Source: a virus. From it: a DNA stretch of 64,000 nucleotides. The notes below the pieces were generated by a model. That model did not search any database, was not told where the DNA came from, and saw only the letters and a list, made by a program, of their open reading frames with translations. Below are positions 1 to 49,745 of this stretch, one piece after another. A program made the position numbers and the translations under genes. The stretch's first letter is position 1; every line of letters starts with the position of its first letter. The stretch is from positions 1 to 64,000 of the IMG/VR virus record IMGVR_UViG_3300046794_000123. The stretch is one strand, 5' to 3'.

Positions 1-257
1 AGGCGTATTTCTCGACGGTCGTCGCTGCCAAGAAGGTTCCGATCAAGGAGCTGGAGAAGTACGGCAGCAAACTCCTCGACATCACCGAGGAGGAGAAGGA
101 ACTGGGATACAAGCACGTGTTCCAGACCCGCATCACCAAGCAATCCACCGGCATGCGAATCCGTGCACCGATGGGCATGTTCGACAAGGCAGAGACGTAC
201 ATCGACAACGACTGCCAGAAGTTGCTGGACCACCTGAACGAGTTCTACGATATCTGA
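1..257 (+). CDS. C-terminal part of an unidentified replication-region protein (partial)
   Basis: Only the last 84 codons are in the window; the frame is open from base 3 to the TGA at 255-257. The product is hydrophilic and charged (it includes KELEKYGSKLLDITEEE and ends LLDHLNEFYDI). It lies 53 bases upstream of ssb on the same strand, so it is probably the last gene of the DNA-metabolism block that precedes SSB in N4-like phages. I do not recognise a domain in the visible part and assign no function. Confidence 0.75.
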   Translation, partial: AYFSTVVAAKKVPIKELEKYGSKLLDITEEEKELGYKHVFQTRITKQSTGMRIRAPMGMFDKAETYIDNDCQKLLDHLNEFYDI

Positions 258-310
258 TCGGTCAGCACCCGTTTAAACACAACCAAACTTTTCAAAGACA
301 CCAAGACACT

Positions 311-1093
311 ATGAGCACTCTGTTCGGAAATCTCAGCAGCGAAGGCCTCGAAGAATCCCAAGACCGTCTGGGCGGCGGCTTCCGCCCCCGTGACTCGGAC
401 ATCTACGAGTTCACGGTCAAGGCCATGTACGCCGGTCAGTCGGATGGCGGCGCACGCTCGATCACCTTCATCGGTGAAGAGGGCGGGAAGGAATACCGCG
501 AGGTGTTCTGGATCACCAACAAGAAGGGCCAGAACTTCTACATGGCCAAGGACAAGGACGGCAAAGAGACCGGCAAGAAAGCGCCGATGATGGGCTTCAC
601 CATCGTCGACGACATCTGCCAGATCACCACCGGCAAGCCGCTCTCGGAGCAGGACGCCGAAGACAAGGTCGTGCAGGTCTGGGAAGACGGCAAGCAGGTC
701 AACAAGTCGGTGCCGATGCTGATCGACTGTATCGGCCAGAAGGTTGCACTGGGCGTTATCCGTCAGCGTGTCAACAAGAACGTCAAGAACGAGCAGAACG
801 TCTACGTGCCGACCGCCGAAGAGCGCGAAGAGAACGTCACCGACAAGGTGTTCCACCCGGAGCTCAAGCTCACCATCGTCGAAGCCAAGGCCGGTGCCGA
901 CAACGCAACCTTCTGGGATGCGTGGCTGGAGCTGAACAAGGGCAAGACGCAGGACCGTCGCAAGATCAAGGACGGCCAGGGCGAGACCGGCCAGGCAGGT
1001 GCACCGAAGGCCAGCCGTGCGTCGAACGCTGCAGCACCGCAAGCCGGTGAAGCTGCAGCAGCGCCGAAGAAGTCGCTGTTCGGCAAGAAGTAA
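311..1093 (+). CDS. ssb: N4-type single-stranded DNA-binding protein
   Basis: 260 aa, close to the 265 aa of N4 gp45. The N-terminal 190 residues form a mixed beta-rich body with the aromatic and basic patches expected of the phage SSB fold (about residues 30-175). A flexible Ala/Pro/Gly-rich tail (about 215-250) leads to the basic end KKSLFGKK. In N4 this protein is needed for replication and recombination, and its extreme C-terminus with terminal lysines activates host sigma70 RNA polymerase at late promoters. The same lysine-ending tail here suggests the dual role is kept, which is an inference. It is followed after 6 bases by the RuvC-like gene, so the two are probably co-transcribed. Confidence 0.9.
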   Translation: MSTLFGNLSSEGLEESQDRLGGGFRPRDSDIYEFTVKAMYAGQSDGGARSITFIGEEGGKEYREVFWITNKKGQNFYMAKDKDGKETGKKAPMMGFTIVDDICQITTGKPLSEQDAEDKVVQVWEDGKQVNKSVPMLIDCIGQKVALGVIRQRVNKNVKNEQNVYVPTAEEREENVTDKVFHPELKLTIVEAKAGADNATFWDAWLELNKGKTQDRRKIKDGQGETGQAGAPKASRASNAAAPQAGEAAAAPKKSLFGKK

Positions 1094-8500: not shown

Positions 8501-11500
8501 GAGGAGCCGTGCATATTCCTTCAGTGCATAGAGCTGCGCGAACGATGCACCGGAGCCAAGGGAAGCGGAGAGCTTCTCGATGTCGGCCGTTTCCATGCCG
8601 AGCTTGCCGCCCTTCAGGTAGGCACGCAGCACATCCACTGCCGGCGCATATTTGCCATTGAGCGCATCGAGCATCTGGTTGCGAGCTGCGGTGTACGGCA
8701 TGTTGTGCACCTTGATGCCGATACCTTGTGCCACACCCAGATCGAATGCACGGATGTGCTCACCCCGCAGCATGTTCAGGGTCGAGAGCGTCGGCAGGAT
8801 CACATGCCGCATCAGCTTCGAGGCCTGCGGATTGAAGGCACCCAGCATTTGCAGGCGGCCGACCTTCGACACGCCGTAGCCATAGCGGTGTTCGATCTCT
8901 TCCATCGGCTTGCCAGTGGCGGCCGACTGAGCACGGGTAACAGCCACCAGATCACGCATGGCGTCGAACGCCGAGGTGATCGACAGGGCTTGACCCTTCT
9001 TTGAGATGGCGTCGTTCTTGTTGAGCTTCTCCGAATCCGATTCACCGGGTCCAAAGATCTTGAGCAGATTGCCACCTGCGTTGAGTGCCTCCATCAGGTT
9101 GACCGTTTCCATGTCGAGCGTATGCGGCACCGACGATTCGCGGCCCACCATCTCCTGCTGCTCATCGGTGAGCTTCACACCCGGATTGCGCATCTGCTCA
9201 TCCGAGTTCACCGGCACTGCACCGTCCATGTAGTAGATCTGCTTGGGCTTGGTCATCACCACACGCTCGATGGCGTCCGGCATGGCTGCCACACCCTTGA
9301 AGACAGTGGCCGGTTGGATGCGGAAGATCTCCACTTCCCGGAAACCCTTGGGCAGCTTCTGGCCTTCTTTCCGCACAAACGGCACCGGTTGACCGGTACT
9401 GGTGTCGACAACCATCGTCTCCGGATTCGTCAACGACTGGCCCTTGTTCTCTCCGGTCTTGAGCTCGATGGTGTCCAGTGCCTTGATGACTTCAGCCGCC
9501 ATGGCTTGCGGGATACCCTGCGAGTACGCCACGTCTGCATCAGCGTCTTTCGTCAGACCCCAGTATTCCTGGATCTTCTGAGCCAGATCCGAGTAGGCGT
9601 CGATACGCAGCGTGCCCGATTGCAGGAACGTGGCAAGCGGACCGTTCTCGTCCACTGTGTCGAGCGGCACACCGAAGATCCGGGCAACGTCCTCGTTGTT
9701 GTAGTGGCTGGCCTTCTGACGAGCTTCGAGTAGCCACTGAAGTCCGGCCAATGCTGCACCTTCAGCGAGCTGCTGGTTCAGACGCAGTACACCGTCCTCA
9801 CCCTCTTCCACCAGGTTCATCAGCTTGCCGTTTTTGTAACGGTTGATGTCCTTGGTGCCTTCGTCGAAGTCCTTCTGGTTGTTGCCTTTGTCGAGAAACA
9901 CCGGGATCTGCGCATTCATGGCCGCAATGATCTTCGGCACATAGCGCAGGAACGCCTGATAGTCGGCAGCGACCTTGGGTGTGAAGAGATTGGTGCCATC
10001 AATACCGGCAGCATGGGTAAAGGCTGAGCCCGAGTGAAGGGCTTGCTGCACCTGTTCCAGTGGATTCTCTTCGCCCGAGAACTTGGTGATCGGCTTCGAC
10101 GGGAACTTGAACGCATTGACGAACATGTTCCCGGTCGGGAAGTGAATCAGCGTGGGGTAAGTCGAAGCCAATCCACCTTGCTGATCCGCTTCACCCACGA
10201 TGCGGTACTTGCGCTTGGCCGCATATTTCTGCACCACTTCCTTGGAAGCCTGGCCGGGATTCAGCCTGCGGTTGATCTCCGACAGACGTGCTTCTTCCTG
10301 CGGCGTGAGTGGACCATCGATCTTGCGATTGATCAGGTCATCACGCTCATCTTCGAGGGAAGGCGTGTCCTCCACCGGAGCCGCAGCGGGAAGATCCTTG
10401 TTTACCGATTCAACTGGCTTGGCCGTCTCTTTTACTGCATCCTTCGCAGCAGGCTTCTCGGAGGTAACCGGTTGTTTCGGGGCTTCATCCTGAACGGTCG
10501 ATTCGCTAGACTGGGAAGCAGGCGCTTCTTTCTTTCCACGAACCCCGTCCGCGAACTCCTTGGCCACCTTCGACGGGTGGGCATCAGCGAGCGACGGATC
10601 CAGAGACACCTCAGCCAAATGCTTAACACCCAATTCCGGAAAAGCCGTAGCGAGTGCGTTGTGAATCCCGGTGAGTGCGTGAGACTCCGCCGCCACCTGC
10701 TGAACGAAGCCGATCGAGCTCGCCGCACGTTTGCCCCTGACCGAGACACCGAACGGATTCTGGGACTTGGTGAAGCCGGACTTGTCCTGACGAGCAGCAT
10801 CGTAGTGAAGCGCGTTACCCGGATTCGCATTCCCGCCATGAGCCGCGATCTGGGCGTTCACCGCACGAATCTTGTTCTGCTGGCTCTGAACAAATTTCTG
10901 GAATCCGAGCAGGGCCGTCTTGGCACCCTCAGTGTCACCTCGACCATACGCCGCACGAATGGCATTGGTATGCTCAAGCGCCGACTCTTCGCCTTCTGCC
11001 GATCCCTGATTGACCGTAACCTTCTCGCTCACTAGATCCGCACTGGACTTCAGGCCGGTCTTCTTGAGCTGTTCGATATAGGCTTTCTGTCCATCCAGAA
11101 TCGCATTGGCGGTACGCAGGGCTGCGCTCTGACGATTGTCGAGCGTGATCTTGCCCGCTGCCGCCATGTTCAGGATCAGCTCATTGTTCGCCCGGTTGGA
11201 GTTCTGCGGACTGATCTGAGCTGCAGCAATGTTGGCCTGGACAGCCTGCTGACCTTCTGGTGAATCGAAGTGTTGTTCGGTCAGGGTGTCCTTGGCGACA
11301 CGTTGAGCAACCTTCTCTGCACGCTCCGTGTTCGCTGCGGTCTTTCCTGCCGGTGACTGTTGGAACGCAGTCAGCAGTTCACCCACCTGACTGGAGAACT
11401 GTTTGGCCGCATGGTCATCGGGCAGCGACTTGAAGTCTTCACCGGCAAAATTGAGCCCGTTCTCCCCGAACACATTGTTGATCGAGTCGTTGAGCGTGGC

Positions 11501-27996: not shown

Positions 27997-28397
27997 ACCT
28001 GGCTCACCTGAAAGGACGCATCGAGCCAGGGGAAAGAAGACACCCTTACGCTGTAGGTACCGGGTTGAGAGAACTCCAGCTCACAGTGATCGTCCGTGCA
28101 GTCATGGACCACGCCCTCGATCGTGATCGTGCAGGGCACCGGCAGGTTCTCAAGTACCCTGCCCACGAGTGTTGCAGGGCAGGCTGGCCGAACAAGAACC
28201 TCCCCGTCTTTCACGTAATGCGTCTCGGCTGTGCCCATCCCTTTCGTCAGCCGCCCGCCATCTGGTATCACCTGGATGTCGAAAATGAATGCCGGCACGC
28301 TGCCGTAGTAGAGGATCTTCCCTGCCGCATCGGAGGCGACGTATTCGACCACCGTGTGATCCAGGACCGGTGCTTCCACCACTTGTTCTTCGCTCAT
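27993..28397 (-). CDS. Probable tail-fibre accessory/assembly protein
   Basis: 134 aa, beta-rich. The pattern ETHYVKDGEVLVRPACPATL, followed by LPVPCTITIEG and SQPGTYSVRVSSFPWLDASF, is common in small proteins encoded next to phage fibres. It begins with an ATGA overlap after the 533-aa fibre. It probably aids fibre assembly or caps the fibre; inferred from position and pattern. Confidence 0.65.
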   Translation of the reverse strand: MSEEQVVEAPVLDHTVVEYVASDAAGKILYYGSVPAFIFDIQVIPDGGRLTKGMGTAETHYVKDGEVLVRPACPATLVGRVLENLPVPCTITIEGVVHDCTDDHCELEFSQPGTYSVRVSSFPWLDASFQVSQV

Positions 28398-29995
28398 CGC
28401 TTTGCCTCAAGAAGTGCAACTGTGGAGCCAGTGAAACCGCCTTGTGCCGAGGAAAGGGTGATCGTGATCACCTGAGCCGCCCACGCTCCCAGACGCACGA
28501 ACGTCCCTGCCTGAACCTGATCACCCTGCAGCGTTGCCTGCACACTGCCATTCACCTTCAGCTGGAGGATGCCTGGCACTCGTGTGCCCGCTTCCGGGTT
28601 ACCAGTGCCGAGACACAAAGCGCCGATGAAGATGATGATGTCACCGCCCACGCTCTGGTACGTCACTGACTGATTGTTGGAAAACCCGCCCCACGAAGCG
28701 AGTGTCGATACTGCATTGTTGCCAATGCGCAGCGTATCGACCTGAGCGAAGCCAATCTTGGCCGTGGTGATCTGGGCATCTCCGATCTTGGCGTTCGTGA
28801 TCGATGCATCAGCGATCTTGGCGTTGGTAATGGCCGCATCGGCAATCTTCGCATTGGTGATCGTGGCATCACCGATCGCTGCATTGGTGATGCACACCTG
28901 CGGCACACCATTGACCGAGCCCACCCAGAACGGCTGCACACCGGGATACCCCGGCAACTGCACCGTGAACCGGTCAGCCAGAATGTTGAAGTAGCTGACG
29001 ACTGCGCCATTGGCTGCGGTTGAGTACAGACCAAACCCGGATACATAGCCGTTGTTGTCGATCTTGACGGCGTAATTCGCATACACACCATTGATCGAAC
29101 TCTGCTGAACGTTGATCGTGCTGGTGTGTCCATTGAGCGTCGTCGTCAGCGCCAGCATGGCAGACGCATTGGACTGGTTCGCCGCAGCCAGTGCCGTCTG
29201 TAGCGAAGTAATCGCAGCCGATGACACGTCCGTGTGGGCCTCGACCTGAGTGATCCGGGTCGACAGTGCCGAGTCTGCATCAGCACGGGCTTCTTGCTCA
29301 TCGAGGATGCTGGCCGTGTTCTGGCCGACATCGGCCACAACCACATCGATGCGCTTACCGATCGCCGTATCGGCATCGGCATAGGCGATCTTCGTCTCAT
29401 TGATGGCGACCGTGTTGGCGGCTGTTGTCGCCACCACCTGCTCGATCCGCTCACTAAGTGCCGACTCAGCATCGGCACGGGCGAGCTGCTCATCCTGAAT
29501 GGCCGCTACGTTCGCATCAATCCGGGCACCGACCGTATTGATCTTGATCGCCACCGACTCTTCATTGGTCTGCCGGATCGCCTTTTCTTCGGTGATCTCG
29601 GCCTCGAAGATGCTATCCGCGAGCTGGCGTGCCTCCACCTCGGCTTGAAGCACAGCATTGGCCGTGGTTTCGGCAGTGATCTGTGCCTGCGCCACGGCTT
29701 TCGCAATGACCGCATCGATCACTGCCTTTTCCAGCAGATCCTTGTCTGCCTGCGTCAGTCCTCCTGGGTCGCCCTTGAAAAACGGTACGAAATCGGTGCC
29801 CAGCGTCGAGCCATCCGGGCTGTAGAGCCGGATGACCAGATTCTTTGTCTCAAGCACCCCGGAAATGGGATCGTCTTCGAGAGCTGCCGACAGGACATTG
29901 GATTGGAGACCGAGCTGCATTTCCTCGGTCCCCAATCCAACAGCCAGTCCGGAAGTCTTGATGACGATCTGGGGATCATCCAGAACGTCACTCAT
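28394..29995 (-). CDS. Tail fibre / host-specificity protein with J-like C-terminal region
   Basis: 533 aa from the ATG at 29995. Residues ~60-290 are coiled coils with repeated blocks (DEQLARADAESALSERI, DEQEARADADSALSTRI). Next is a DUF1983-like segment of lambda gpJ type (NGYVSGFGLYSTAANG, NILADRFTV). It is followed by five near-identical units of ITNAKIADA type (about residues 380-425), and then a beta-rich tip. The repeats make a rigid shaft and the tip probably binds the receptor. Upstream ORF sequence is open but lacks a ribosome site. Confidence 0.8.
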   Translation of the reverse strand: MSDVLDDPQIVIKTSGLAVGLGTEEMQLGLQSNVLSAALEDDPISGVLETKNLVIRLYSPDGSTLGTDFVPFFKGDPGGLTQADKDLLEKAVIDAVIAKAVAQAQITAETTANAVLQAEVEARQLADSIFEAEITEEKAIRQTNEESVAIKINTVGARIDANVAAIQDEQLARADAESALSERIEQVVATTAANTVAINETKIAYADADTAIGKRIDVVVADVGQNTASILDEQEARADADSALSTRITQVEAHTDVSSAAITSLQTALAAANQSNASAMLALTTTLNGHTSTINVQQSSINGVYANYAVKIDNNGYVSGFGLYSTAANGAVVSYFNILADRFTVQLPGYPGVQPFWVGSVNGVPQVCITNAAIGDATITNAKIADAAITNAKIADASITNAKIGDAQITTAKIGFAQVDTLRIGNNAVSTLASWGGFSNNQSVTYQSVGGDIIIFIGALCLGTGNPEAGTRVPGILQLKVNGSVQATLQGDQVQAGTFVRLGAWAAQVITITLSSAQGGFTGSTVALLEAKR

Positions 29996-29997
29996 GG

Positions 29998-30315
29998 CTA
30001 TCCTTGTGTCACCGTGTCCAGCACGTCGATCTCTTCGGTGTTGGAGATCAACACATTGCCCGCCCCATCCGTCAGCCGGATGTCCATCAGATGGGGCATG
30101 ACCTTCCACTTGGTGGTGTCCGTGGTCGGCGCATAGATCCGGATCATACCGGTGGCCGGATCCAGAATCGAACAGATCATGTGCTGAACGAACTCGAAGT
30201 TCGTCTTCGTGCGCAAATCAGCAGCAAGGATGTACCCAGCAATCGGATACGGTTCACCCTTGTTGGTGATCTGCCCAGAGAAATCGAACGTCTGTCCGCG
30301 CTTGAACTTCACCAT
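29998..30315 (-). CDS. Small tail/baseplate-type protein
   Basis: 105 aa, beta-rich (GQTFDFSGQITNKGEPY, then AADLRTKTNFEF and MPHLMDIRLTDGAGNV). The pattern resembles the N-terminal adaptor domain of baseplate upper proteins, which connect fibres to the tail. It lies two bases before the 533-aa fibre gene and overlaps the peptidase-like gene by 7 bases, which supports a role attaching that fibre. Confidence 0.6.
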   Translation of the reverse strand: MVKFKRGQTFDFSGQITNKGEPYPIAGYILAADLRTKTNFEFVQHMICSILDPATGMIRIYAPTTDTTKWKVMPHLMDIRLTDGAGNVLISNTEEIDVLDTVTQG

Positions 30316-41922: not shown

Positions 41923-41987
41923 CCTTCGCTGCCGCTCAGGCTCGTTCTCGCGTTTGGGTGAGATACCTCTCAGGAACCAAGGAAACC

Positions 41988-44433: not shown

Positions 44434-44601
44434 ATGAGCACGAAGAAGTGCTGCCCTCATTGCGGCAGTGAACGCATCCTGCGTGATGCGTGGACCAAGT
44501 GGGACGGCACCGAATGGGTAGTCCATGACGTGCTGGACAACTGCGTCTGCAACGAATGCGGTGCGGACTTCAATGACGACGAGATCGAGGATCAAACGTG
44601 A
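44434..44601 (+). CDS. Zinc-ribbon small protein
   Basis: 55 aa. CCPHCGS at residues 6-12 and CVCNECGA at 39-46 form a two-CxxC zinc ribbon; the end is acidic (DDEIEDQ). Start follows repeated ACCAAG boxes. Stop overlaps the RNAP1 start (GTGA). Possibly a nucleic-acid or RNAP-binding factor because of its coupling to RNAP1. Confidence 0.6.
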   Translation: MSTKKCCPHCGSERILRDAWTKWDGTEWVVHDVLDNCVCNECGADFNDDEIEDQT

Positions 44602-45407
44602 GTGACTCGAAGATCGAGCATCAGAAAGAACTTGAGCGTCTCTATAACAAGAACCAGCTCATGCCACGCATGCGAGCTGAGTTCAAGGCTGAGCCGGAGA
44701 TCATCGAGCACCTGAAGGCCAATGGCATTCCGGAGGACTTCGGTATCGATCTCCTGGTTCAGATGGCACTGCATAAGCGAGCTGATCTGCAGACCATGAT
44801 CGGCACTCTGCGCCACCACTGTGTGTCGGCCCAGGAATGTGCGGATCTGCTCGTCAAGGCTGCCGAGGCCGATCTGTGCACCTACAACACTGTCCTGCGT
44901 CAGTTCATCGTGATCTTCGAGATCGATGCTCAGACACAGGAAGAGATCGATCGATTCCAGTATCCGCTGCCGATGGTAGTCGAGCCAAGGGAGATCAAGC
45001 ACAACGCCCAGAGCGGTTACCTGCTCAACAACAGCTCCATCATCCTGAAGGATAACCACCATGAGGATGATGTGTGTCTCGACCACATCAATCGGATGAA
45101 CAAGGTCCGATTCAAGTTCAACTTCAACACCGCGAAACTCATCAAGAATGAATGGAGAAACCTCGACAAACCCAAGGAAGGTGAAGAGCGAGGCGAGTAC
45201 GAGCGCCGAGTCCGTGCTTTCGAAAAGTACGACAAGACTGCTCATGCTGTCATCGATCTACTTGTTCGAGAAGGGAACGAGTTCAACTTCACGCATCGAT
45301 ACGATAAGCGTGGTCGCACGTACTGCCAGGGCCATCATGCGAACTACCAGGGCACGGCGTGGAACAAAGCCGTGATCGAGTTCGAACGAGGAGAAGTGAC
45401 GCAATGA
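44598..45407 (+). CDS. Phage RNA polymerase subunit 1 (N4 RNAP1/gp15-like)
   Basis: 269 aa from GTG, the same length as N4 gp15. It carries the N-terminal half of a T7-type polymerase: THRYDKRGRTYCQGHHANYQG near the C-terminus, with the DxxGR motif at 236-240. Motifs A-C are on the RNAP2 protein 3.1 kb downstream. In N4 the heterodimer transcribes middle genes together with SSB-type factors. The usual adjacency of the two genes is broken here by the plasmid-like module. Confidence 0.9.
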   Translation: MSDSKIEHQKELERLYNKNQLMPRMRAEFKAEPEIIEHLKANGIPEDFGIDLLVQMALHKRADLQTMIGTLRHHCVSAQECADLLVKAAEADLCTYNTVLRQFIVIFEIDAQTQEEIDRFQYPLPMVVEPREIKHNAQSGYLLNNSSIILKDNHHEDDVCLDHINRMNKVRFKFNFNTAKLIKNEWRNLDKPKEGEERGEYERRVRAFEKYDKTAHAVIDLLVREGNEFNFTHRYDKRGRTYCQGHHANYQGTAWNKAVIEFERGEVTQ

Positions 45408-45625: not shown

Positions 45626-45894
45626 AAACCACCTGGCGTCATCCGGGCTACGATGCCCTCAATGAGAAGAGCAAGCCTGTCGTCGTGAAGACGTATTCGA
45701 GACCTGGAGTGAGTCCCGATCCGCAGGTCTCGGTAGGCTGCACCATGCGCAACTTCACCACGCTGGAGCTGCTCGACGATGGCACGCTGCAAGTGCGAGA
45801 TCGTGATCTCGACAAGGCAGTCAACCTAGGCCGAGCCAAGGAAGCAATGGAGGCCATGGCCTACTCCATGAACATGCTGAAGATCCACTTCTAA
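45622..45894 (+). CDS. Small protein, unknown
   Basis: 90 aa; the start overlaps the previous stop (ATGA). Beta-rich middle (TMRNFTTLELLDDGTLQVRD), helical end (AKEAMEAMAYSMNMLKIHF). A GAGCCAAGGAAG box is translated inside it as RAKEA. Last gene before the plasmid-like module. Confidence 0.65.
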   Translation: MKTTWRHPGYDALNEKSKPVVVKTYSRPGVSPDPQVSVGCTMRNFTTLELLDDGTLQVRDRDLDKAVNLGRAKEAMEAMAYSMNMLKIHF

Positions 45895-45956
45895 CCAAGG
45901 AACGAGGGAGACAAGGAAAAGTCCTTCCTTGGTTCCCTCCCTCCTTCATTCGCGGG
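45895..45956 (+). terminator. Hairpin terminator before the ParA module
   Basis: GGGA..CAAGGA pairs with TCCTTG..TCCC (about 45906-45944), made from opposed CCAAGGAAC boxes, followed by CCTCCTTCATT. It isolates the downstream module from the RNAP1 transcript. Confidence 0.55.
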
Positions 45957-45983
45957 AGGCTTGCATCCCTCCAAGAATGGTTT

Positions 45984-45995
45984 ACCGTATACGGT
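45984..45995. promoter_or_regulatory. Palindromic operator upstream of parA
   Basis: ACCGTATACGGT, a perfect 12-bp palindrome, embedded in GGTT...AACC (45979-46002). It lies 25 bases before the parA start, overlapping where a promoter would be. Likely autoregulatory site of the ParA/RHH pair, or part of a centromere. Confidence 0.6.
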
Positions 45996-46019
45996 TGAAC
46001 CAACCTTCTTGGAGTTCAG

Positions 46020-46664
46020 ATGAGAACAATCGTCTTCTCCTGCCTGAAAGGCGGGAGTGGCAAAACCACGCATTCAGCCCACTTCGCAGTGGCGCTGGAA
46101 GCCATGGGCAAAGGTCCAGTAGTCACTATGGACCTCGATCCGCAAGGATCTCTCTCAGCCTGGTGGAATGACCGCAAGGCTGAGACACCCCAGTTCGCCA
46201 TGGTCGAGAACGTAGCGCACCTGGCCAAGAAGCATGTCGAGCTCACCAATGCCGGCTACCAGTGGTGCGTGATCGATACGCCACCGCAGGACCACGAGAT
46301 CAACCGCACAGCCATTCGTCTGGCTGATCTGGTGGTTATTCCGGCCAAGCATTCTCCGCATGACATCCGGGCTGCCGAGAGCACGGTGGATCTATGCGAG
46401 CAAGAGAAGAAGAAGTTCTTCTTCCTGCTCAATGAGACCAACGGCAAGTCGGTCTCGCTGGCTGCTACCCGTAAGCTTGCCTCGATGGGGCCGGTGATTC
46501 CACACGCCATCCCCAAGCTCAATGGCTACTGGGAGTCGATGATCGACGGCCGTACCTTTCAGGAAGTAAACAAGGGGACCGGTGCAATCATCATTGATGA
46601 CGTAGCCAGCTTCCTTATCAGCCAGTTCGAGAAGCAGCCGAAGAAGGAGAAGGCTCATGTCTAA
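46020..46664 (+). CDS. parA: ParA-type partition ATPase (ParF-like)
   Basis: 214 aa, the size of short type Ib ParA proteins such as ParF (206 aa). Deviant Walker A LKGGSGKTT with Lys10 and Lys15; Walker A' MDLDPQGSLSAWW with Asp38 and Asp40; Walker B CVIDTPP with Asp86. No N-terminal helix-turn-helix, so autoregulation would fall to the partner. Such ATPases form gradients on the nucleoid and move plasmids. Ribosome site is TTGGAG. It overlaps the partner gene by 8 bases. A MinD-like or conjugal role is unlikely given the cassette. Confidence 0.9.
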   Translation: MRTIVFSCLKGGSGKTTHSAHFAVALEAMGKGPVVTMDLDPQGSLSAWWNDRKAETPQFAMVENVAHLAKKHVELTNAGYQWCVIDTPPQDHEINRTAIRLADLVVIPAKHSPHDIRAAESTVDLCEQEKKKFFFLLNETNGKSVSLAATRKLASMGPVIPHAIPKLNGYWESMIDGRTFQEVNKGTGAIIIDDVASFLISQFEKQPKKEKAHV

Positions 46665-47010
46665 GCCATCACTCGACTCACTCGTCACCCGTAAGGGCAG
46701 TGCTGCGCCTGCCGCCTTGGAACCGCCTGCAATCGAGCAAGCAAGCAAGGAGCCAAGGAAGGAAGTAACCAAGGAGGCATCCAAGGAACCCTCCAACCAA
46801 GGAGCCAGTGAAGGAAGGAGACGTGCTTGGCACCAACCCGGCCAGGAGGAGTGGAAGAAGACGAACTATGAGATGCCGCTGCGTGTGCAGACCAAGCTCA
46901 AGGAGATGAAGAATTGGGGTTACATCCCCAATGTCTACAAGTTCGTGGCTGAGGTGGTCGAGAAAGAGATCGACAAGGTCATTGCCAAGGCCGAGAAGGA
47001 GGGCTACTGA
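46657..47010 (+). CDS. Ribbon-helix-helix partition partner (ParG-like)
   Basis: 117 aa. The C-terminal ~50 residues (TNYEMPLRVQTKLKEMKNWG, then NVYKFVAEVVEKEIDKVI) show a short strand followed by two helices, the ribbon-helix-helix pattern of ParG and similar centromere-binding proteins. Residues 27-58 are a low-complexity linker (ASKEPRKEVTKEASKEPS) encoded by tandem copies of the genome's CCAAGGA box. Overlaps parA by 8 bases. ParG is smaller (76 aa). Binds DNA at the centromere and stimulates ParA by an arginine-containing tail in the family; the tail here is unverified. Confidence 0.7.
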   Translation: MSKPSLDSLVTRKGSAAPAALEPPAIEQASKEPRKEVTKEASKEPSNQGASEGRRRAWHQPGQEEWKKTNYEMPLRVQTKLKEMKNWGYIPNVYKFVAEVVEKEIDKVIAKAEKEGY

Positions 47011-47011
47011 C

Positions 47012-47650
47012 GTGAGCGTACCCGAGCTATTCGATGACGAGCCAGAGAAGATACAGCAGCTGGAGCTATTCAAGGCTGAGACTCGCTGGTTCCATGTCTT
47101 CAAATCCATGATCGCCAGCGGTGATGTGGCCAAAATGGGGCCGTATGCCTTCACCGTCTATTCGGTGATCAAGGCCCATACCAGCTTCAGCAAGGGCCAC
47201 AGCTTCCCGGAGATCTCCACCATCGTGGAGGAGTCGGGCATCAGCAAGGCACAGGTGCATCGAGCTCTCGATGTACTGGAGGAACTGGGTTACGTGCGCA
47301 GGGGCAAGAAGCCCAGCGGACGAGGGAACCTCTACATCTTCCGTGAGAAGGTGGACATCGAGGACAAGCAGGGCAACCATGTGGCTGATGCCTCATGGGA
47401 TTACCTGCCGCTCGGTGTCAGCTCTGCCATCGCTGAGCTGAAGCATGTCAAAATGACTGGTGACTTTAGCGGAGCCAAGATCGTCCAGATCGAGAACCTG
47501 ACTGTCAACGTGAACACAGCGAACGACAGTTCGATTCAGATCAACATTCAGACGCTTATGGACAACATGGAAATGCTGCCCAAGGAGCTGAAAGAGATAT
47601 TGGTTAGACGATTAGCAGAGATGCAGTTGAAGTCTCCCACTGAGACTTGA
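47012..47650 (+). CDS. Winged-helix protein, candidate replication initiator
   Basis: 212 aa from GTG, one base after the previous stop. Residues ~45-105 form a winged helix (YAFTVYSVIKAHTSFSKGH, then VEESGISKAQVHRALDVLEE, LGYVRRGKKPSGRGNLYIF), as seen in plasmid Rep proteins and MarR/ArsR-like regulators. The C-terminal part is variable with amphipathic helices (LMDNMEMLPKELKEILVRRL). It ends inside the first copy of an array of dyad repeats that it may bind. Replication initiator is favoured by the context (parA, RHH partner, repeats, DnaA box); a transcription repressor is the alternative. Confidence 0.6.
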   Translation: MSVPELFDDEPEKIQQLELFKAETRWFHVFKSMIASGDVAKMGPYAFTVYSVIKAHTSFSKGHSFPEISTIVEESGISKAQVHRALDVLEELGYVRRGKKPSGRGNLYIFREKVDIEDKQGNHVADASWDYLPLGVSSAIAELKHVKMTGDFSGAKIVQIENLTVNVNTANDSSIQINIQTLMDNMEMLPKELKEILVRRLAEMQLKSPTET

Positions 47651-47753
47651 AACGTAGGTCTCACACTGAGACGTATCCAAGAGAGACTGAACAACTCCCT
47701 TCAAGTCTCAGGCTGAGACTCGAAACCGGGGTTCAGGTCTCACACAGAGTCAC
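47631..47753. repeat. Four dyad repeats (iteron-like)
   Basis: Copies of GTCTC-N5-GAGAC start at 47632, 47658, 47705 and 47737: spacers CCACT, ACACT, AGGCT and ACACA (the last ends GAGTC). A half copy lies near 47682. Copies 1 and 3 continue with TGAAAC or CGAAAC. Copy 1 overlaps the stop of the winged-helix gene. The array fits iterons or operators of that protein. Confidence 0.75.
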
Positions 47754-47836
47754 TAATAAGATAAGACTTGTTTACTAAGTAAACCCAGAGCATCGAAGAC
47801 TTATCCACACTTTCAGTGGCTAACCCTGTGAACAAC
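47754..47836. other. Candidate origin: AT-rich stretch, palindrome and DnaA boxes
   Basis: TAATAAGATAAGACTTG is AT-rich. GTTTACTAAGTAAAC (47770-47784) is a 15-base palindrome. TTATCCACA (47801-47809) is a perfect DnaA box. TGTGAACAA (47827-47835) is a reverse DnaA-like box with one mismatch. Adjacent to the repeat array, this is the usual order in iteron plasmid origins. Confidence 0.6.
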
Positions 47837-48500: not shown

Positions 48501-48526
48501 AAAGGCACCTTCGGGTGCCTTTTTCT
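48501..48526 (+). terminator. Terminator before RNAP2
   Basis: AAAGGCACC, loop TTCG, GGTGCCTTT, then TTTCTTTTG: perfect 9-bp stem with a stable UUCG loop. RNAP2 must therefore be transcribed by read-through or from a promoter between 48526 and 48552, or by processing. Confidence 0.9.
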
Positions 48527-48551: not shown

Positions 48552-49745
48552 ATGCAAAAGTTCACCGGCATGCAGTACCTCAAGATCGACATCGCTTCGA
48601 ACTTCGGCCTCGACAAGAAGACCTGGGACGAGCGTCTGGACTGGTTCGAAGAGAACAAGCACTGCCTGCATGAGAAGCTGGCTGAAGCGGAGACACCGGC
48701 ACTGTACTTCGCAGGCGTGCAAGCCTATGAAGCGAGCCAGCGAGGAGAAGCCTCGGGTTATCCGATCTCCCTCGATGCCACGAGCTCGGGATTGCAGATC
48801 CTCGCTGCACTCTGCGGTGACCGTCTGGCTGCAACCCTGTGCAATGTCATCTCCTCTGGCTCACGGGAAGATGCCTACACCGGCATCTACGAACGCATGC
48901 TGGCCAAGGTCGGAGCCGAAGCCAAGATCAAGCGCACCGACATCAAGCAGGCTGTGATGACGGCTCTCTACGGTTCCAAGGCCATCCCGAAGCTGGTATT
49001 CGGTGAGGGCGGGCTGCTCGACATGTTCTACGACACCATGAAGGAAGTCGCTCCCTACGCCTGGGAGCTCAACGAAGCCTTTCTCGCAATGTGGAATCCG
49101 GAAGCGCTCATCAACAGCTGGGTGCTGCCCGACAATTTCCACGTGCACGTGAAGGTCATGGGCCAGGTCACCGAGCGAGTCCACTTTCTGGATGAGCCGT
49201 TCGACTTCACCAAGCAAATCAACATGCCCACGGAGGAGGGCAGGTCACTCGGTGCCAACACCATCCACTCGCTCGACGGGATGATCGTCCGTGAGATGAA
49301 TCGTCGTTGCAATTACGACACTGCGACAATTCACCGCATCTGGTCGGCACTGGAAGGCGACTGCAGCGCAGGCACCGATGAGGACGATGAAATAGTGATG
49401 ACGCTTTGGAATCACTTCCTCGAGTCCGGTTACCTGTCGGCTCGCATCCTCGATCACCTGTACGGAGACAACATCGATCTGGTGAACTCAGCCGACATCC
49501 ATGAGTTGCTGACCAGTCTCCCCAAGAAACCGTTCCAGATCATGACCATCCACGACTGTTTCCGCTGCCTGCCCAACTACGGCAACGATCTGCGGGAGCA
49601 GTACAACCTGCAACTGGCCCTCATTGCCAAGAGCAACCTGTTGCAGTTCCTGGTTCGCCAGATCGTCGGCCGTCAGGTCGAAGTCAACAAGATCGACGGC
49701 ACCATGTGGCAGGACGTTCTGTCCGCAGAGTACGCCCTTAGCTGA
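48552..49745 (+). CDS. Phage RNA polymerase subunit 2 (N4 RNAP2/gp16-like)
   Basis: 397 aa (N4 gp16 is 404). Catalytic half of a split T7-type polymerase: motif A ISLDATSSGLQIL with Asp75; motif B KRTDIKQAVMTALYGSKA with Arg128, Lys132, Tyr140 and Gly141; motif C MTIHDCF with His334-Asp335. AAGGAG precedes the ATG. It works with RNAP1 (44598-45407) on middle promoters in N4. It is followed by a non-coding stretch with a 9-bp hairpin. Confidence 0.93.
   Translation: MQKFTGMQYLKIDIASNFGLDKKTWDERLDWFEENKHCLHEKLAEAETPALYFAGVQAYEASQRGEASGYPISLDATSSGLQILAALCGDRLAATLCNVISSGSREDAYTGIYERMLAKVGAEAKIKRTDIKQAVMTALYGSKAIPKLVFGEGGLLDMFYDTMKEVAPYAWELNEAFLAMWNPEALINSWVLPDNFHVHVKVMGQVTERVHFLDEPFDFTKQINMPTEEGRSLGANTIHSLDGMIVREMNRRCNYDTATIHRIWSALEGDCSAGTDEDDEIVMTLWNHFLESGYLSARILDHLYGDNIDLVNSADIHELLTSLPKKPFQIMTIHDCFRCLPNYGNDLREQYNLQLALIAKSNLLQFLVRQIVGRQVEVNKIDGTMWQDVLSAEYALS

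Follow-up and report, generated by a model that had tools for sequence, protein, structure and literature searches.

A cassette at 45.9–47.8 kb of an N4-like phage genome is probably a low-copy plasmid replicon, and the phage that carries it is most likely a phage-plasmid. The window—the whole 64-kb stretch of DNA that was analysed—is part of the 78,537-bp virus record IMGVR_UViG_3300046794_000123. What the DNA shows directly is which parts the cassette has, how they are ordered and conserved, and that its repeats covary with its proteins. The phage-plasmid reading draws on an iteron origin with a matched protein, a covarying par region, purifying selection, conserved synteny, and related gene sets on the plasmid pA29BJ2 and on the pair vB_IME_Ab2712/pRBH2-3. 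An earlier note on this DNA had suggested either that the phage replicates and partitions as an extrachromosomal element or that it has captured a plasmid module to control its host or competing plasmids; the same evidence supports the former, while the latter finds no specific support.

The phage genome and the setting of the cassette

The window phage encodes a virion RNA polymerase (vRNAP) of 3,616 aa (phrog_2206 in the PHROG profiles, E 0). Other N4-type PHROG matches include the MCP (2.8e-141), portal (3e-254) and TerL (5.4e-95), as well as the replication genes for DNA polymerase (4.5e-155) and primase (E 0). From these genes, together with those for RNAP1 and RNAP2, the phage belongs to the Schitoviridae. 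The ends of the record overlap by ~1 kb (window 1–1037 and the record end) at 91% identity; the hallmark N4 genes and the overlapping ends indicate a near-complete N4-like genome. An identity of 91% rather than 100% in this overlap points to assembly errors or a mixed population.

No integrase or resolvase was found in the window record, no known repressor by Pfam match among the ten early ORFs scanned, and no sigma-70-like promoter was called in the cassette region. An extended ribosome-binding site, AACCAAGGA, recurs ahead of ATG genome-wide, for example at 41977 and 51238. The densest short repeats of the record (repeat windows at 28701 and 28751) lie in a gene at 28394–30109, whose product has tandem ITNAKIADA-type repeats, as in tail fibres.

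The interval between RNAP1 and RNAP2 contains, in order, parA, a small gene for a ribbon-helix-helix (RHH)-like protein, a winged-helix gene, repeats, an AT-rich element and a DnaA box. The features of the interval and its flanks are as follows:

44598–45407, + strand: RNAP1 gene (N4 gp15-like), left flank; phrog_2166, N4-like RNA polymerase, E 1.5e-102
45893–45934, no strand: candidate centromere part 1, inverted CCAAGGA repeats, two of the six local copies (45895, +; 45926, −)
45979–46001, no strand: 23-bp palindrome GGTTTACCGTATACGGTTGAACC, single copy, probable operator/promoter of the par–rep operon
46020–46664, + strand: parA, predicted ParF/type Ib partition ATPase; phrog_164, 4.3e-33, and the NCBIfam partition ATPase NF041546, 4.5e-37 with a score below the curated cut-off
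46657–47010, + strand: parB-like small gene overlapping parA, RHH candidate centromere-binding protein with two C-terminal helices
46753–46803, + strand: candidate centromere part 2, CCAAGGA at four sites in the RHH coding region (starts 46753, 46769, 46781 and 46797)
47012–47650, + strand: rep, winged-helix gene with a GTG start, putative iteron-binding replication initiator; HTH_36, 2.4e-9, and phrog_28562, 3.6e-27
47632–47646, 47658–47672, 47705–47719 and 47737–47751, no strand: putative ori, four dyad iterons of GTCTCACACTGAGAC type, from repeat analysis
47673–47687, no strand: putative ori, degenerate fifth iteron copy, from repeat analysis
47751–47772, + strand: putative ori, AT-rich candidate duplex-unwinding element CACTAATAAGATAAGACTTGTT, weight-matrix match
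47801–47809, + strand: putative ori, DnaA box TTATCCACA, sole exact copy in the 78,537-bp record
48501–48522, + strand: intrinsic terminator preceding RNAP2, 9-bp stem and T-rich tail
48552–49745, + strand: RNAP2 gene (N4 gp16-like), right flank; phrog_2051, E 2.2e-160

The synteny RNAP1–par–rep–RNAP2 is kept in three divergent N4-like genomes (the window record G000, G001 and G011). In the sister phages RHph_Y2_6 and Holyagarpour the interval holds small hypothetical genes only, with no cassette. The cassette had been described as framed by terminators; the one at 48501 is called, but the hairpin at 45895–45956 is not; it is without a T run and forms part of the CCAAGGA repeat cluster.

Partition genes, winged-helix gene and candidate origin

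ParA has 214 aa, with no N-terminal HTH, a deviant Walker A motif (KGGSGKTT) at residue 10 and the further motifs DLDPQGS and VIDTPP. A length of ~200 aa, the deviant Walker A and the missing HTH are features by which it can be classed as a type Ib (ParF-like) protein, and the ParF-sized ParA with intact Walker motifs that had been proposed is borne out. Its best PDB sequence matches are ParA 5u1g and the plasmid protein ParF 4dzz (2.5e-12 for 4dzz), and identity to its best plasmid matches is ~42–44%. The next gene, whose start overlaps the parA stop, encodes a protein of 117 aa that is modelled with a disordered N-terminal half, two C-terminal helices and no strand. This shape fits a ribbon-helix-helix protein, making RHH a candidate fold; no Pfam profile matched the protein and a PDB search with its profile gave nothing useful. 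Of the overlapping RHH-type gene proposed earlier, the overlap and the two helices thus stand, but the fold is without a profile or PDB match. Within type, pN/pS for the three cassette genes lies between 0.15 and 0.39 (0.15–0.28 for parA and 0.17–0.20 for the RHH gene within its own type), indicating purifying selection.

The par region contains six copies of CCAAGGA in 341 bp, against 0.22 elsewhere. The copies within the RHH gene occupy all three reading frames, which points to constraint on the DNA. Together with those ahead of parA, they may form the centromere. A centromere dispersed over the whole genome was considered and rejected; the 57 genome-wide copies are near the Markov expectation of 47, and many are ribosome-binding sites before start codons, so that the local cluster alone is kept as a candidate. 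Between the upstream repeats and parA lies the 23-bp palindrome, which is identical in the window record and G001, unchanged upstream in G011/L056, and probably the operator/promoter of the par–rep operon.

The winged-helix assignment of the third gene holds: in addition to its HTH_36 match, the AlphaFold model shows a confident wHTH at about residues 26–115. Weaker PHROG matches (1e-8 to 1e-5) are to replication-initiation, O-like and DnaD-like families. A fold search with Foldseek placed MarR regulators and plasmid initiators level. Many of the top PDB matches are MarR-type repressors or other winged-helix entries; 4pql, 4pt7 and 4pta (Z 8.1–9.1 over 90–95 residues), whose titles read DNA binding protein, initiator and MDR initiator, are tied with the MarR rows; some of the viral-model matches are annotated as replication proteins. 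The structure search, which the earlier note had set as a test that could refute its reading, neither refutes nor confirms it, and the modelled fold by itself leaves initiator and repressor tied. We infer that the protein acts as Rep.

The winged-helix gene runs into the first iteron with its last codons. The 200-bp iteron stretch holds 60 pairs of near-identical 14-mers, where shuffled sequence yields 19 at most; the four dyad repeats of the earlier description are present, along with the degenerate copy at 47673. The AT-rich tract (~47740–47785, up to 77% A+T) and the DnaA box were likewise found as described, and a DnaA box is similarly placed in relatives. On a matrix trained on 16 other loci with the window left out, CACTAATAAGATAAGACTTGTT, which lies within this tract, outscores every other position of the 78.5-kb record (14.4 bits; the next best has 10.1). 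Read by eye, the element looks like an oriC 13-mer in reverse complement. Its matrix rank and position suggest that it could be the site of unwinding.

Replication, partition, copy control and a quiescent state of the window phage may be pictured as follows. A dimer of Rep would bind the dyad iterons just 3′ of its own gene and, jointly with host DnaA on the one DnaA box, open the adjacent AT-rich element. Rep would then load the host replication proteins, so that the circular genome could replicate at a low copy number with no need of the lytic machinery. At division, copies would be distributed by ParA and the RHH protein acting on both sets of CCAAGGA repeats, the one 5′ of parA and the one within the RHH gene.

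Relatives, other carriers and known systems

Relatives comprise 36 loci from ParA and winged-helix searches of viral contigs, some of them sharing contigs. Scans of genome contigs with the window-type ParA and the Acinetobacter winged helix returned no relatives, and the N4-like locus L050 had no match by megablast against phages. Dyad repeats lie 3′ of the winged-helix stop in nearly all cassettes that are readable to the end, and most of these also have the AT-rich element and DnaA box. The iteron sequence varies with the winged-helix recognition helix: ISKAQVHRAL is paired with the half-site GTCTC, LSKSQVLREL with GTGTCA, RQ(I/V)IN(D/E)L with GTGCAG and MS(Q/L)(T/S)TV with GCGTTA. With half-sites read by eye and values uncorrected for phylogeny, recognition-helix identity correlates with the half-site across relatives (Mantel r 0.43, p 0.001) and within the core family (r 0.27, p 0.04), where whole-protein identity gives r −0.02.

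The par region behaves in a similar way. A heptamer found upstream of parA and in the 5′ part of the RHH gene tracks the RHH type. Its four versions are CCAAGGA (the window, L014, L007 and G011), CCAAGAA (L012), CTAGAAA (L002) and AAGGAAG (L003, L005, L008 and L009). Across loci there are 5–8 copies per 341 bp, against 0.25 or fewer elsewhere. Loci L003 and L009 are 100% identical in RHH and 97% in ParA, with winged helices 32% identical, while L007 and L012 have winged helices 99.5% and RHH proteins 48% identical. The RHH–heptamer and winged-helix–iteron pairs have therefore been exchanged independently, as expected of par/centromere and rep/ori modules. In L005, at 8930–9813, a second short winged-helix-like ORF lies immediately 5′ of the winged-helix gene, and the non-N4 carriers L002, L007 and L012 have integrase-like genes near the cassette, upstream of parA.

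The gene order had been called typical of plasmid rep/par loci, and it does recur on a plasmid. Polaromonas plasmid pA29BJ2, the sole non-phage plasmid found with this Rep, has the same three-gene order, semi-palindromic iterons, a 13-mer-like element and DnaA boxes. Its gene table contains no phage genes, and the plasmid shows no Rep_3 or RPA-type initiator; unlike the window it represents no phage, and its ParA is 23% identical to that of the window by alignment.

A second relative is the Acinetobacter phage vB_IME_Ab2712, classified in the Schitoviridae and recorded as a phage from hospital sewage. It matches pRBH2-3, recorded as a circular plasmid of the clinical bacterium A. baumannii and annotated with the three genes in order, at ~99% in most aligned blocks (one block is 93% and some stretches are unaligned), and both contain RNAP2 and a serine recombinase; a third copy, nearly identical to these two, is the virus record G020, whose identifier looks like one given to an IMG isolate genome. 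This Acinetobacter element and the window phage share their family and the order parA, small gene, winged-helix gene, with winged helices 31–38% and ParA proteins 34–35% identical; in the former, however, the cassette lies away from RNAP1 and RNAP2 and there is a serine recombinase, which is absent from the window phage. The recombinase gene (L016, 25189–25821) could serve to resolve dimers. pRBH2-3 has no internal repeat longer than 60 bp, so it holds no duplicated terminal repeat, although assembly collapse could look alike, and the record could be phage DNA sequenced along with its host. The iteron signal of pRBH2-3 is weak, at 14 pairs where shuffling reaches 23, and there is no DnaA-box match and no heptamer in the par region, so the element backs the idea of an N4-like phage-plasmid and not the details of the window origin. 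The cassette and a relative recorded as a circular plasmid together suggest that some N4-like viruses probably live as plasmids.

The winged-helix/iteron module also occurs on four contigs, G008, G009, G013 and G014 (L032, L033, L042 and L044), with a T7-type single-subunit RNA polymerase, a primase-helicase and a DNA polymerase, suggesting plasmid-like T7-like phages.

Initiators of the lambda O type are winged-helix proteins that bind semi-palindromic origin iterons. RepA_N initiators (pSK41, pTZ2162) likewise act as winged-helix proteins on semi-palindromic origin iterons (PMC7145576). The window protein resembles both in the semi-palindromic iterons beside it, but its putative origin lies 3′ of the gene, overlapping the last codons only, and RepA_N is not among the 13 Pfam families matching at E up to 1. 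Of the systems worked out in detail, the mycobacteriophage cluster A parABS/RepA phages (Miko, RedRock) come nearest; in them partition genes and an autonomous origin replace the integration cassette, and the RepA phages have an HTH initiator (PMC7157519). These phages are temperate and mycobacterial, with lysogeny and immunity shown experimentally, a RepA of 320–350 aa and no iterons found (PMC7157519); the window phage, by contrast, is a podovirus of N4 type whose cassette has dyad iterons and ParF-type partition genes.

Typed phage-plasmids (AB_1, P1, N15, SSU5, pMT1, pCAV, pSLy3, pKpn, cp32) combine a full phage genome with plasmid replication and partition genes, and no N4-like type is among the ten groups; the one from A. 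baumannii, AB_1, is listed as a siphovirus type distantly related to SSU5, 101–122 kb in size (PMC12977533). The window phage appears to match this combination, with a putative rep/ori module and a predicted partition and inheritance system on a near-complete phage genome. No Schitoviridae phage-plasmid is described in the open-access literature searched. The earlier premise that N4 relatives are strictly lytic agrees with the usual view, but some N4-like viruses are reported with genes for integrase and with proviruses that are putatively integrated, which casts doubt on it; neither plasmid nor partition is mentioned for these viruses in the same source (PMC10654107).

Alternative readings and implications

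The winged-helix gene and its iterons might instead form an extra origin for lytic growth, with ParA and the RHH protein segregating or positioning phage DNA and no plasmid state at all. Phages often carry O-like initiators, and the PHROG matches of the winged-helix protein are to phage replication-initiation families. This explanation is unlikely, however, given that a polymerase and a primase of N4 type are encoded by the window phage itself, that partition systems serve vertical inheritance, and that sister N4-like phages manage without the cassette while a relative is recorded as a plasmid. The many MarR-type repressors among the top Foldseek PDB matches, the operator-like look of the dyads and the conserved palindrome ahead of parA would suit a winged-helix transcriptional repressor with the dyads as its operators, acting with the RHH protein in a regulatory or immunity circuit and not in a replicon. 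This is very unlikely, since the dyads sit at the gene's 3′ end and lead into an AT-rich element and a DnaA box that are conserved; three top structural rows with long alignments (90–95 residues) are DNA-binding or initiator entries, and on pA29BJ2 there is neither a Rep_3 nor an RPA initiator.

Iteron and par elements generally exert incompatibility, and module specificities differ between phages, as might be expected if the cassette had been captured for use against competing plasmids or the host. Such a weapon would have no need of an origin with an unwinding element and DnaA box beside genes under purifying selection, and it would leave the related phage recorded as a plasmid unexplained; its probability is very low. 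It is just as hard to credit that the cassette is a recent functionless passenger: the RNAP1–RNAP2 interval is a variable small-gene site in sister phages, but pN/pS of 0.15–0.39 within type and the synteny retained in three divergent N4-like genomes argue for function. A phage-plasmid accordingly remains the preferred reading.

A broader and distinctly tentative proposal is that interchangeable rep/ori and par/centromere modules circulate among N4-like and T7-like podoviruses long regarded as virulent, making phage-plasmids of them, in N4-like phages perhaps without a classical repressor. Early transcription in N4 relies on the RNA polymerase that the virion injects; a daughter cell that received its copy by way of Rep and Par would have none of it, and the genome would then stay silent by default.

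It is common practice to regard N4-like phages as strictly virulent, and they are put forward for use in phage therapy. If the phage-plasmid reading is true, a plasmid-like resident state would alter how the safety, host range data and ecology of these phages are read. The many matched pairs of initiator and iteron, and of partition protein and repeat, would offer a compact natural system for the evolution of replicon specificity, and how an N4-like genome stays quiet would become a directly testable question.
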